From Candidatus Poribacteria bacterium (GTDB lineage Bacteria > Poribacteria > WGA-4E > WGA-3G): a DNA stretch of 45,850 bases. The stretch lies in NCBI GenBank assembly GCA_022827885.1, contig JAJEIP010000130.1:1-45850 (forward strand), in the 5' to 3' direction. Below, in pieces: positions 2,864-18,485 of this stretch; positions within the stretch are counted from its first letter, which is position 1; each line of letters begins with the position of its first letter. The position numbers and the translations under genes are program-made. Under the pieces are notes generated by a model. The model did not search any database. It was given only the letters and a program-made list of their open reading frames with translations, and was not told the origin of the DNA.

Positions 2864-3721
2864 GTGCAACATTCATTAGACCAATTTTATACGAAATCAG
2901 AGGTCGCGCGGGCATGTTGGGAGCATTTCACGGAGACGCTTTCAAGCTTAAATCGAAGTCCCAGCGACCTCTTTTTCGTAGAGCCCGCCGCTGGTACCGG
3001 TGCGTTTTATAAACTCTTACCGCCGGAAAAACGGTTAGGCATAGATCTCGTGCCGAAATGTAGCGATGTGAAATCCCAAGACTTTTTTGCAGGCACCGAT
3101 CTCCCGTCTACACGCAGCGATATTGCGGTTATCGGTAACCCACCTTTCGGGAAGCGTGGAAAATTAGCGATAGACTTCTTTAACCATGCTGCCCATCTGG
3201 CGGATATCGTGGCGTTCATTGTCCCCGTCAATTTCCGAAAGTTTGGCACGCATAAGCGGCTTGAGGTCAACATGCGGTTTATCAGTCATTTGCCGCTCCC
3301 CAGAGATGCGTTCTATCTCGAAACCGGTAAATCCTACTCGGTAAATACAGAGTTCCAGATATGGACCCGTTTGGTAAGTGCCCATCCGGACATGCGACAA
3401 TATAAACGCTTACCCATCCGACACCGTGATTTTCAGATGTGGCAGTATAACAACACACCTGACGCTTTGAAAGTCTTCCAAAATCCGTTTGATTTCGCTG
3501 TGCCGTGTCAGGGATGGCAGGATTATTCTCGGAGAGAGATAGATGAAAAGCAGTGCGAACGGCATAAACAGTGGATGCTTTTAAAAGCACAAAATCCAAC
3601 TGTCTTAGCGCGGTTGATGAGGATTGATTACGAACGCTTGGCACAAGAATGTGCTACGGCTGTCCCAGGTTTTCGGAAGGGGGATTTGGTGAAGGTGTAC
3701 ACGGATCACTATGAAGTCTGA
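2864..3721 (+). CDS. SAM-dependent N6-adenine-type methyltransferase, orphan
   Basis: 285 residues starting at a GTG. It has the two diagnostic methyltransferase motifs: the SAM-binding motif I VEPAAGTGAF (residues 39-48) and the catalytic NPPF motif (92-95) typical of N6-adenine (gamma-type order) DNA methylases. An N-terminal QFYTKSEVA segment is also common in such enzymes. No restriction endonuclease or specificity subunit is adjacent, so it could be an orphan (regulatory or phage-derived) DNA methylase; a protein or RNA substrate cannot be excluded. It follows the second receptor gene by 43 bases and may be co-transcribed with it. No good ribosome site is visible before the GTG, so the start is uncertain. 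Recognition sequence unknown. Confidence 0.75.
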   Translation: MQHSLDQFYTKSEVARACWEHFTETLSSLNRSPSDLFFVEPAAGTGAFYKLLPPEKRLGIDLVPKCSDVKSQDFFAGTDLPSTRSDIAVIGNPPFGKRGKLAIDFFNHAAHLADIVAFIVPVNFRKFGTHKRLEVNMRFISHLPLPRDAFYLETGKSYSVNTEFQIWTRLVSAHPDMRQYKRLPIRHRDFQMWQYNNTPDALKVFQNPFDFAVPCQGWQDYSRREIDEKQCERHKQWMLLKAQNPTVLARLMRIDYERLAQECATAVPGFRKGDLVKVYTDHYEV

Positions 3722-8427: not shown

Positions 8428-8456
8428 GTGACATTCCCACAGAAATATGGTATAAT
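8428..8456 (+). promoter_or_regulatory. Extended -10 promoter of tnpB element 1
   Basis: GTGACA (8428-8433), 17-base spacer, then TGG-TATAAT with the -10 at 8451-8456. Seven bases past the -10 is A8463, the first base of the outer helix of the leader. The second element has the same arrangement. Confidence 0.65.
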
Positions 8457-8462
8457 TAAGTT

Positions 8463-8553
8463 ATCAAGTTGGCAGACAGTTTCAGCGTAACTGCACAGTT
8501 ACGTGTCTGCCAACCCACTGAAACGGGGTTAAAGACTTGATGCTTGATATACC
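8463..8553 (+). ncRNA. Structured tnpB leader RNA with predicted pseudoknot, copy 1
   Basis: Pairings seen directly: outer helix D ATCAAGT (8463-8469) with ACTTGAT (8535-8541); helix A TTGGCAGACA (8469-8478) with TGTCTGCCAA (8504-8513); helix B GTTTCAG (8479-8485) with CTGAAAC (8518-8524); hairpin C CGTAACTG (8486-8493) with CAGTTACG (8496-8503). The order A-B-C-C'-A'-B' makes A and B cross, i.e. a pseudoknot, with no unpaired base between the strands up to 8513. CCC (8514-8516) could also pair with GGG after B. Every helix recurs in the leader at 17280-17372, with compensatory changes in A and B. There is no good ribosome site next to the tnpB ATG (8554). Role unknown: it could control tnpB translation, bind TnpB, or be the folded left end of the transposon. 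Confidence 0.65.
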
Positions 8554-9666
8554 ATGAGAAAATCATATAAGTTTAAGATGCAAAATCAAAAGAACGCCGT
8601 TAAATTCGGCAATATGATTGACGACATGTGGGGTATCCACCTGTACATCATGCTTTTGGCGCGCCGGTATCGTCGTATGTTTGGCAAAGACGTATCTGCC
8701 TACAAACTGAAGGCACACGTCACCAAACTCAAGAAGCGGACAAAACCGCATTGGAAAGACCTGCCGAGCCAAGTCGTTCAAGACGTTGTTTTGCGTTACG
8801 GCAAATCTCTAACCGCCTTTTTTGATAATATCAAAGACCGAGCCGCCGGTATCACCACTCGCAAGGTCGGTAGACCGAAAATCAAACCGCGTCATAAATA
8901 CAACTCTATGACATTCACACAAGCGGGGTATGAACTACAGGAGAACCGCATCAAGATCAACTGCATCGGGACATGGTATTCTTTCCACAAGCACCGAGAC
9001 TGGACAGGTATCATCAAGACAATCACGATAAAACGTGACAGATGTGGCGATTATTGGATATGCTTTTCATGCGAGGGTGTAGATGATTCCGAACGGAAAC
9101 CCAAGACGGGTAAGAGCGCAGGGTTTGACTACGGAAACAAAACATTCCTCATCAGTAGCGAAGGTAAGAAGATACACTCTCCACAGTATTTGAAACAATC
9201 CCTCCGGCAGTTGCGCGCACTCAACAAAGCACTTTCTCGTAAGGTTAAAGGTTCGGGCAATTGGTATCGTGCGAGCAGGGCATTGGCACGTCTGCATCGG
9301 AAAATCGCAAGGCAGCGGGAAGATTGGCAATGGAAACTTGCTACGGATCTTTGCACAGATTTTGATACCCTCTGTTTTGAAACGTTAAACCTTGATGGCA
9401 TGAAACGGCTTTGGGGTCGTAAAGTCTCTGACCACGCCTTCTACCAGTTTCTGCAGATACTCGAACAGAAGTGTGCGAAACACGGTAAAACTTTCATTCA
9501 AATATCGCAATGGACTGCTACAACAAAACCTTGCAGTGATTGTGGATACCACAACAAAGAACTCTCTCTTTCAGATAGACAGTGGACGTGTCCTGACTGT
9601 GGTTCACACCATGACAGAGACGTAAACGCTGCTATCAATATCAAACGGGCAGGCTTGGCTGCCTAA
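8554..9666 (+). CDS. tnpB: TnpB RNA-guided nuclease (IS605 OrfB family), copy 1
   Basis: 370 residues, a typical length. The RuvC nuclease centre looks intact: Asp192 (AGFDYGNKTF), Glu276 (LCFETLNLDGMKRLWGRKVS) and an aspartate of HDRDVNAA (354-356). A zinc ribbon has Cys327, Cys330, Cys346 and Cys349 (CSDCGYHNK ... CPDCG). TnpB proteins use an omega RNA from the element's 3' end to cut DNA carrying a target-adjacent motif, which helps the element to be retained. The N-terminal part (TKLKKRTKPHW) is shared with the second copy; overall the two are diverged paralogues rather than recent duplicates. No tnpA neighbour. Translation start: ATG directly after the conserved leader, without an adjacent Shine-Dalgarno. 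Confidence 0.93.
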   Translation: MRKSYKFKMQNQKNAVKFGNMIDDMWGIHLYIMLLARRYRRMFGKDVSAYKLKAHVTKLKKRTKPHWKDLPSQVVQDVVLRYGKSLTAFFDNIKDRAAGITTRKVGRPKIKPRHKYNSMTFTQAGYELQENRIKINCIGTWYSFHKHRDWTGIIKTITIKRDRCGDYWICFSCEGVDDSERKPKTGKSAGFDYGNKTFLISSEGKKIHSPQYLKQSLRQLRALNKALSRKVKGSGNWYRASRALARLHRKIARQREDWQWKLATDLCTDFDTLCFETLNLDGMKRLWGRKVSDHAFYQFLQILEQKCAKHGKTFIQISQWTATTKPCSDCGYHNKELSLSDRQWTCPDCGSHHDRDVNAAINIKRAGLAA

Positions 9667-17243: not shown

Positions 17244-17273
17244 TTGACATTTTTTGTAAGAAAGTGGTATAAT
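17244..17273 (+). promoter_or_regulatory. Extended -10 promoter of tnpB element 2
   Basis: Perfect TTGACA (17244-17249), 18-base spacer, TGG-TATAAT with the -10 at 17268-17273. Seven bases downstream is A17280, the first base of the outer leader helix, exactly as in element 1. Confidence 0.75.
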
Positions 17274-17279
17274 AAGTGT

Positions 17280-17372
17280 ATCAAGTTGGACCGACAGTTG
17301 AAGCGTAATCGCAAGGTTACGTGTCGGTCCCACCCACTTCAACGGGGTTAAAGACTTGATACTTGATCTACC
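17280..17372 (+). ncRNA. Structured tnpB leader RNA with predicted pseudoknot, copy 2
   Basis: Pairings: helix D ATCAAGT (17280-17286) with ACTTGAT (17354-17360, or a repeat of it at 17361-17367); helix A GGACCGACA (17288-17296) with TGTCGGTCC (17322-17330); helix B GTTGAAG (17297-17303) with CTTCAAC (17337-17343); hairpin C CGTAATC (17304-17310) with GGTTACG (17315-17321) closing a GCAA loop of the GNRA type. The order again makes A and B cross. Compared with copy 1, A differs at several pairs and B at two adjacent pairs, with both partners changed each time. The stretch ACGGGGTTAAAGACTTGAT after B is identical in both copies. Confidence 0.65.
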
Positions 17373-18485
17373 ATGAAAACTGAAAAATATGAGTTTTATC
17401 ATCAGTCGAATATCATCACACTTGGCAATCTCCTTGACGACTTGCATGGCGTGCATGTCCACTTGCTTTTATTGCAGCGACGCTATTATCGTATCTATGG
17501 TAAATATGCGTCCTTTGGGCGTATCTGCTCGCATATTACGAAGTTGAAAAAGCGGACAAAACCGCATTGGAATCAACTGCCGAGTCAGGTTATCCAACAA
17601 GTCGCCAAGCGTATCCATCTTGGATATGACAAGTTTTTTGACTACCTTGACGAGAAGGCGAAAGGACTATCTCCGCGCAAAGTCGGCAAGCCAAAGATAA
17701 AACCGAAACACCGATATAACTCACTGACGTTCACCCAAGCCGGTTATGAGATTGAAGACAATCGCATTCATATTAAGTGCCTGAAGAAGTGGTTCACCTT
17801 TTGGAAACACCGTGAATGGACTGGGACTCTCAAGACAGTGACAATCAAACGCGATAATGTAGGCGAATACTATTTGTATCTGACGTGTGAGAATCCAGAA
17901 CCTACCAAAAAACTCTCACTGACCGGTAATGAGGCAGGAGCAGACTTTGGTATGAAAACATTCCTCACACTTTCAGATGGTATCAAGATAGGGTCTCCAG
18001 AGTTCTATAAGCAAAGTCTCAACGAGATACGTTCGGCAAATAAAGCACTCTCGGGTAAGAAAAAAGGTTCAAACGCGTGGTATCGTGCGAAGCGACACCT
18101 TGCCCGCGTCAATAAGGATATAGCCAATAGAAGGCGGGATTGGTTCTTCAAGTTAGCACTCCGTCTTGTGAGACGCTATGATACCCTTGCCATTGAAAAC
18201 CTAAATCTTGAAGGTATGAAACGCCTGTGGGGTCGTAAAGTGTCTGACGTTGCTTTTGGTGAGTTCTCATTGATCCTTCGTTGGATGTGTGCCAAATACG
18301 GTAAAACATTGCTGAAAGCAGGCCGTTGGGAAGCGACAACAAAACCTTGCTCAGATTGTGGCTATCACAACAAAAGCTTAACACTTTCAGATAGACAGTG
18401 GACATGCCCTGACTGTGGTTCATCCCACGACCGAGACATCAACGCTGCGCGAAACATATTGCGGGTTGGGGTACCCTGGACCTAA
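17373..18485 (+). CDS. tnpB: TnpB RNA-guided nuclease (IS605 OrfB family), copy 2
   Basis: 370 residues. RuvC residues appear intact: Asp191 (AGADFGMKTF), Glu275 (LAIENLNLEGMKRLWGRKVS) and Asp353/Asp355 (HDRDINAARNI). The zinc ribbon has Cys326, Cys329, Cys345 and Cys348. Relative to copy 1 it shares the central and C-terminal blocks closely but differs much in the N-terminal third after residue 75. The expected activity is RNA-guided DNA cleavage using the element's own omega RNA. The ATG directly follows the conserved leader. No associated tnpA. An intact open frame in both copies argues for selection or recent activity. Confidence 0.93.
   Translation: MKTEKYEFYHQSNIITLGNLLDDLHGVHVHLLLLQRRYYRIYGKYASFGRICSHITKLKKRTKPHWNQLPSQVIQQVAKRIHLGYDKFFDYLDEKAKGLSPRKVGKPKIKPKHRYNSLTFTQAGYEIEDNRIHIKCLKKWFTFWKHREWTGTLKTVTIKRDNVGEYYLYLTCENPEPTKKLSLTGNEAGADFGMKTFLTLSDGIKIGSPEFYKQSLNEIRSANKALSGKKKGSNAWYRAKRHLARVNKDIANRRRDWFFKLALRLVRRYDTLAIENLNLEGMKRLWGRKVSDVAFGEFSLILRWMCAKYGKTLLKAGRWEATTKPCSDCGYHNKSLTLSDRQWTCPDCGSSHDRDINAARNILRVGVPWT

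Follow-up and report, generated by a model that had tools for sequence, protein, structure and literature searches.

The two tnpB genes of the window (the whole 45,850-nucleotide stretch of Candidatus Poribacteria DNA analysed here) are each preceded by a member of a well-supported family of structured leader RNAs. Comparison of homologous sequences establishes the family, its place after a promoter, its helices, its topology, in which helix B crosses helix A, and the pairing of one strand, D, with two others, D' and D''. With moderate confidence, we read the leader as a cis-acting structured 5' UTR RNA, a translational switch in which D chooses D' or D''. Each of the two leaders is about 95 nt long, lies directly 5' of its tnpB gene and contains the crossing helices A and B together with hairpin C. 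The parts of both copies are as follows.

8428..8456, + strand: promoter of copy 1 (-35 box GTGACA, 8428-8433; -10 box TATAAT, 8451-8456; spacer 17)
8462..8468, + strand: strand D of copy 1 (TATCAAG), covarying with D' and D''
8469-8478/8504-8513, + strand: helix A of copy 1, enclosing the B 5' strand and hairpin C
8479-8485/8518-8524, + strand: helix B of copy 1, crossing A
8486-8492/8497-8503, + strand: hairpin C of copy 1, 7 bp, loop GCAC
8514..8528, + strand: hairpin E of copy 1, CCC (8514-8516) with GGG (8525-8527)
8536..8541, + strand: strand D' of copy 1 (CTTGAT), from covariation and D pairing energy
8543..8549, + strand: strand D'' of copy 1 (CTTGATA), ending 4 nt before the ATG
8554..9666, + strand: tnpB copy 1, 370 aa, PF07282 and PF01385
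17244..17273, + strand: promoter of copy 2 (TTGACA, 17244-17249; TATAAT, 17268-17273; spacer 18)
17278..17367, + strand: leader of copy 2, with the same helix set
17278-17285, 17355-17361 and 17362-17367, + strand: strands D, D' and D'' of copy 2
17288-17296/17322-17330 and 17297-17303/17337-17343, + strand: helices A and B of copy 2
17304-17310/17315-17321 and 17333-17335/17344-17346, + strand: hairpin C (loop GCAA) and helix E of copy 2
17373..18485, + strand: tnpB copy 2, 370 aa, PF01385 and PF07282

As the earlier note had claimed, helices A, B and C were located in front of both tnpB genes, and the coordinates confirm that their 5' strands abut without an unpaired base and that B crosses A. 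Hairpin C, which had been given a 2-nt CA loop, actually has 7 bp and 4-nt loops (GCAC and GCAA), and the structure first described was incomplete, D, D', D'' and helix E having been missed. Strand D of copy 1 begins 6 nt past the -10 box, which places it at the expected transcript start or close to it; in the same copy the 3' strand of B (8518-8524) lies in the loop of hairpin E. Folded without the pseudoknot, the two window leaders reach -32.2 and -31.7 kcal/mol, each with z = -3.34, and no equally stable fold occurred among 200 shuffles of either copy. By eye, neither window copy has a T-run after C or E, and a transcription attenuator was rejected on this ground.

Omega RNA lies at the 3' end of tnpB. 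The leader sits at the 5' end, between promoter and start codon, so an omega RNA would be at the wrong end of the gene, and the earlier distinction between the two stands.

In the source genome (5.13 Mb, 148 contigs), 29 stretches matched the TnpB of copy 1 and 26 places carried PF07282, and the regions 5' of these tnpB copies hold the same leader with many compensated changes. Twenty-one of 25 extracted leaders were aligned by sequence only, leaving out L002, L007 and L013 (mismatched helix A, apparently chimeric) and the divergent L014; the first three re-enter the larger set described below as L054, L046 and L051, and L014 was used only in a descriptor parse and in the greedy measure of D pairing. 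In this alignment 93.1% of cells pair, with 98 two-sided changes as against 27.2 ± 4.2 in shuffles, and at most 19 when the partner strand was slid by 1-3 columns. Substitution of D'' for D' gave 91.5% paired cells and 95 two-sided changes. The 5' and 3' strands of helix A in L002, L007 and L013 seem to come from two forms, as if these were chimeric leaders that arose by recombination between copies.

A covariance model, R1, was built from the 21-leader alignment without B and D''. Within the 45,850 bases of the window it matched two places only at E up to 10, namely the two leaders (103 and 94 bits), both of which were among its 21 training rows. It matched 27 places in the source genome, and an R1 leader was present at 24 of the 26 PF07282 places; at C106 (L014) the leader was recognised by descriptor parse, and none was found by R1 at G000:C18:17860-18054 (L111, open frame of 515 aa). 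Three R1 places (C95, C73 and C34:74238, or L048, L050 and L056) have no intact tnpB behind them. Among these, L048 and L050 have well-kept leaders, and an insertion in C disturbs that of L056; the sequence that follows is common to L050 and L056, and a DNA methyltransferase-like frame was seen by eye later in L050.

Covariation was assessed in 81 distinct leaders of class 1, the sequence class of the window leaders (89 sequences with 8 duplicates, omitting 20 distant-type loci, the second L124 match (set A3) and 5 of the 34 R1-matched loci of the tnpB scan described below). The leaders were aligned by sequence, columns less than 60% filled were dropped, and an APC-corrected G-test statistic was compared with 300 parsimony-based simulations on the tree, a null of our own and not R-scape. 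For D:D', D:D'', A, B and C, the covariation summed over the helix exceeded all 300 nulls, in a set found with R1 and biased towards the helices that R1 contains (D:D', A, C and E), B and D:D'' being absent from the model. Four of the seven pairs of helix B were significant at E < 1e-5, as were one of seven in C (E 6e-5) and one of seven each in D:D' and D:D'' (E 0.003 and 0.013); no single pair of helix A, out of eight, fell below E 0.05 (best 0.1). The structure-preserving changes first proposed from two copies are thereby borne out. Helix B is fully complementary in 73 of the 81 leaders, with 46 different 5' strings, and almost every aligned leader forms C from 7 bp and a loop of 4 nt. None of the three pairs of helix E was significant and its helix sum was reached by 35 of 300 nulls, because E, 95.9% paired, hardly varies in this set; between types it varies in pairs by eye (CCC/GGG, CCA/TGG, CCG/CGG, CAG/CTG, ATCC/GGAT). 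The sole significant pair among 4332 outside the structure joins D' to D'', which share D as their partner and covary for that reason. With both crossing helices, A and B, supported by covariation, the class-1 leader is identified from its alignment as a pseudoknot or kissing-loop leader.

Strand D takes 14 aligned strings in the 81 leaders, some of them one-letter shifts of another. Its pairings with D' and D'' both reach -5 kcal/mol or lower in 73 leaders (medians -10.6 for D' and -9.2 for D''), as compared with medians of -4.4 and -3.9 when D was swapped in from leaders with another D string. Because the D strings share a TATC core, a swapped D still often reached -5 kcal/mol, in 391 of 810 cases with D' and 286 of 810 with D''. 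A stricter greedy measure, in which the first duplex was masked, left both pairings at -5 or below in 40 of 94 leaders, a lower figure because the D' and D'' sites overlap. The exceptions are L115, which has a single D copy, and L049, whose D fits neither strand well. By complementarity and covariation, D pairs with both D' and D''. These data also bear on a constitutive stabiliser or damper, in which the 5' fold would protect the mRNA or set a fixed low translation and D'' would be a spare or slipped copy. We consider this unlikely: D' and D'' both track changes in D, in the pairing energies as in the helix sums, and a spare copy should decay, L049 and L115 being the exceptions. The position of D at or near the 5' end would suit such a function, as would the greater strength of D:D' in 56 of the 81 leaders (D:D'' in 23), and no ligand is known.

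Since the 3' strand of B forms the loop of E, B can be modelled as a kissing helix that joins this loop to the A junction, and we infer that alternative states probably do not set A against B, as had been suggested. The idea of a switch is kept, with D as the probable exchanging strand (D' versus D''). HDV-like ribozymes have the same order of first strands and the same A/B crossing, together with a short P3 whose loop forms P1.1. The strand order A, B, C, C', A', B' would accordingly allow a self-cleaving, HDV-like nested pseudoknot (A = P1, B = P2, C = P3); in the Poribacteria leader, however, C is longer and tetraloop-capped, its 7 bp and 4-nt loop leave no room for P1.1, cleavage ahead of A would take away the conserved D, and no Rfam ribozyme family matches. 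We give this reading hardly any credence. A tRNA-like reading of D with an ACC-A end was also dropped, those letters not being conserved.

Conservation upstream of the leader is essentially limited to the last ~50 nt, as judged from 54 loci of class 1 and 70 of class 2, the second sequence class described below. The consensus comprises a -35 box and an extended -10 box, TTGAC..TGTGGTATAAT in the 54 class-1 loci and TTTGC..TGATATACT in the 70 class-2 loci; further upstream little information is left in class 1 and almost none in class 2, where 10 of 2415 pairs of distal flanks are similar. The conserved unit is, on this profile, a predicted sigma70-like promoter plus leader. In 51 of 56 class-1 loci the codon that ends the model is also the first of the longest ORF; together with the promoter-adjoining position, this fits a 5' UTR.

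This arrangement argues against a DNA-level element, in which a protein (TnpA, TnpB or a repressor) would bind operator repeats or transposon-end palindromes that had been misread as RNA helices: the whole structure follows the -10 box and stops at the start codon. Six copies (L019, L020, L021, L022, L028 and L029) share the left-end motif ACGGATTGGA yet have six different 8-letter D strings, the crossing helix B is highly varied in its 5' strings, C ends in 4-nt loops of the kind found in RNA, and the distal flanks of class-2 loci are for the most part unrelated to one another. D, D' and D'' are nonetheless inverted and direct repeats just past the promoter, and the accessible text of PMC12255303 describes RptR as repressing a restriction-modification island via three direct promoter repeats. 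On balance a DNA-level element seems distinctly improbable. Two narrower candidates were rejected, a transposon-end palindrome because the leader is internal and downstream of the promoter, and a link of D to a left-end or target motif because of the same six copies.

Shine-Dalgarno matches at -4.5 kcal/mol or lower were found in 2 of 59 class-1 leaders as against 14 of 59 shuffled ones, in 14 of 43 class-2 leaders and in 14 of 28 uncurated window ORFs; the window-type leaders have none before the ATG. The ATG lies inside D'' in L014, L211, L212, L214, L217, L220, L230 and L231, and in L118, L125 and L055, and the L014 type has a Shine-Dalgarno-like AAGGA between D' and D''.

In the translational switch that we favour, transcription would start at or beside D, and the core would fold into two hairpins, A (enclosing C) and E, with the loop of E kissing the A junction via B. 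This compact pseudoknot would keep D beside two tandem complementary strands. The output would be translation: pairing of D with D' would free the start region (ON), and pairing with D'', at or containing the start codon, would block it (OFF). As the two pairings are close in energy, the choice could be set by a ligand, a protein, the ribosome or the order of co-transcriptional folding. Where the ATG lies inside D'', pairing of D with D'' would conceal it and pairing with D' would keep it accessible, along with AAGGA in the L014 type. In the window type, the lack of a Shine-Dalgarno match and the end of D'' 4 nt short of the ATG speak against a switch.

The leader family is not confined to tnpB, a wider scope than the earlier note had given it. 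Divergent leaders were obtained from a deeper R1 search of 20 genomes, and 10 ORFs behind leaders were scanned. PF07282 scored over cut-off in L115, L116, L117, L118, L126 and L133; the L128 ORF has the TnpB N-terminal domain only, and the L155 ORF (class 2) no domain. GIY-YIG ORFs replace tnpB behind class-1 leaders at L124:748-1503 (-), with NUMOD3 in addition, and at L132:185-1024 (+), where the ORF starts 24 nt past the model end. No tnpB- or GIY-YIG-type ORF stands right behind the weak R1 matches L119-L121, L129, L130 and L136. On its opposite strand, L124 further carries a class-2 leader (2257-2361).

Class 2 has the same strand order and came from the weak matches L131, L138 and L139 and the second L124 place; a covariance model, R2, was built from these four. 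R2 matched 50 of 84 genomes of the phylum at E <= 0.01, a share of class-1 leaders included (e.g. G000:C18), and in the window it matched the two tnpB leaders only (E 0.0026 and 0.015). Seventy loci, top-ranked and not a random draw, were aligned by fitting to R2 (D, A, C and E; not B). At helix level B and C exceeded all 300 nulls, with 2 of 8 single pairs significant in B and 0 of 4 in C; A and E were weaker, their helix sums being reached by 6 and 3 of 300 nulls, and D:D' showed no covariation in this class (222 of 300 nulls).

Behind the 70 class-2 leaders lie small proteins at 28 loci, other ORFs at 38 and no ORF of at least 50 aa at 4. The chosen start falls before 12 nt past the model end in 43 of the 66 loci with an ORF and further away in the rest, so the link between leader and gene looks looser than in class 1. 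The small proteins are of MKTIL.. type, 98-152 aa long and multi-copy (examples are L141, L142, L145-L148, L150, L151, L160 and L164-L166). From their sequences they look like a signal peptide, a coiled middle and a membrane segment, and the family is possibly a membrane effector; two were scanned by Pfam (one below-cut-off match) and one by PADLOC, with none over cut-off.

Twenty-eight of the 38 other ORFs were scanned with Pfam, and nine of those with PADLOC. Restriction, methylation or anti-phage matches were obtained for 17 of the 28: methyltransferases in L153 (below cut-off), L158, L163, L175, L179, L184, L191, L202 and L206; restriction-like proteins in L144 (PADLOC only), L152 (DpnII), L161 (HSDR_N), L174 (BglII) and L200 (MvaI/BcnI); and anti-phage proteins in L176 (AbiTii), L193 (ApeA) and L157 (FRG). 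The remainder were a UvrD helicase (L167), which could be anything, and 10 ORFs without such a match. In small controls that are not like for like, PADLOC matched one ORF among 10 from the window, through a methyltransferase model that Pfam did not support, and Pfam found a restriction or defence domain in 0 of 6. A 285-aa window ORF at 2864-3721 (+) matches PADLOC type II methyltransferase models (E 1e-40) and no Pfam family; R2 found no class-2 leader there.

Because class-2 and GIY-YIG leaders precede other genes, TnpB self-control is unlikely as a general trigger of the switch. A host factor, small molecule or ribosome state would fit both classes better, and the genes behind the leaders gave no metabolic hint.

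Across the phylum, R1 matched 52 of 84 genomes: all 38 of the window genus (own genome included), 11 of 18 of the sister genus and 3 genomes of another family in the same order. PF07282 was present in 67 of the 84, among them every R1-positive genome, and 15 had PF07282 without R1. A TnpB-alignment scan of genome contigs was followed up for the best 80 of 309 loci, of which 58 were from Poribacteria and 22 were not; R1 at E <= 1e-3 matched 34 of these 80, all in Poribacteria, and gave no match among the 22 others at E up to 10. Sixteen Poribacteria loci, mostly without a strong R1 match, were inspected; 12 parsed as a leader, and none was recognisable at the tnpB genes L224, L228, L229 and L290. 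In the descriptor parses that recognised the L014 leader, which pick the best pairing and hence are no test, L122, L137 and L139 gave no parse.

Outside the phylum, R1 found no match in 14 whole genomes behind non-Poribacteria loci, in 64 genomes of the phylum of a Latescibacterota locus or, in a shallow scan scoring 10 candidates per genome, in 386 genomes of the phylum of a cyanobacterial locus; these scans overlap in some genomes, and their positive control is the 84-genome phylum scan only. Pattern matches in viral contigs, one per scan, were attributed to chance, as R1 and R2 gave no match. On these scans, we treat the leader as known only from Poribacteria. Upstream of three Latescibacterota tnpB genes (L262, L270 and L276; about 1385-1503) lies a different long leader. 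In L276, one hairpin has its 3' arm ending at the ATG and CGGGCTGTT in its loop, with which the loop strand AACAGCCCG could pair, and a kissing-loop leader may have arisen in Latescibacterota too, as seen by eye in three sequences and not in two predicted folds.

The earlier reading came through two checks, covariation in further homologues and a comparison with Rfam, in which no family was found that describes the leader. Rfam 15 (4227 families) gave no match in the window at gathering cut-offs, group I introns included. At a lax threshold, the leader itself matched only a miRNA model (E 9.3), and 18 loci from several types of both classes gave one miRNA model below cut-off (E 0.13), outside the leader. 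IStron group I introns are reportedly RNA structures of TnpB-type elements and, like omega RNA, belong to the same kind of element; an intron reading was rejected for want of an Rfam match. No published description of the leader was found among titles and abstract openings, in a search that most subscription papers fell outside. It belongs among the cis-regulatory leader RNAs; within the reach of this analysis, the family, the D/D'/D'' design and the gene set are new.

The nearest known logic would be, by analogy, the RNA control of T4 homing endonucleases together with 5' UTR control of transposases (accessible parts of PMC2988022 and PMC8450116). In T4-like phages, the genes I-TevI, I-TevII, I-TevIII, segB and mobE have leaders whose own RNA structure controls the ribosome site, according to the part of PMC2988022 that is available. 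They resemble the Poribacteria leader in that a mobile DNA endonuclease has leader RNA structure; they differ, on the same text, in forming, over the Shine-Dalgarno site, structures for which late transcripts lack the necessary length. The Poribacteria leader, in contrast, has a pseudoknot, one promoter at the leader start and two alternative partners for D. For IS200 tnpA and ISPpu9 tnp, the accessible portion of PMC8450116 reports that 5' UTR structure helps limit transposase expression; these are transposase genes with antisense or other small RNAs, and that portion describes no pseudoknot, D/D'/D'' arrangement or leader shared with defence genes. RptR, as presented in the available text of PMC12255303, likewise is a dedicated control before restriction-modification genes, but acts as a DNA-binding repressor.

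Little is understood about the RNA-level restraint that bacteria and transposons place on DNA nucleases, RNA-guided ones included. The leader is a large, statistically well-supported RNA family, tied to a promoter and with an unusual three-strand exchange (D, D', D''). More tentatively, and with less confidence than in the switch itself, it may represent a new regulatory RNA superfamily, seen to date in Poribacteria only, one switch serving mobile nucleases (TnpB, GIY-YIG) and host anti-phage genes (restriction enzymes, methyltransferases, AbiTii, ApeA) and sensing a shared signal, for example infection or stalled translation, upon which the core would exchange D' for D''. If class 2 does control restriction-modification and Abi genes by the same switch, this would be an RNA route of defence control, and defence genes could be found by their leader.
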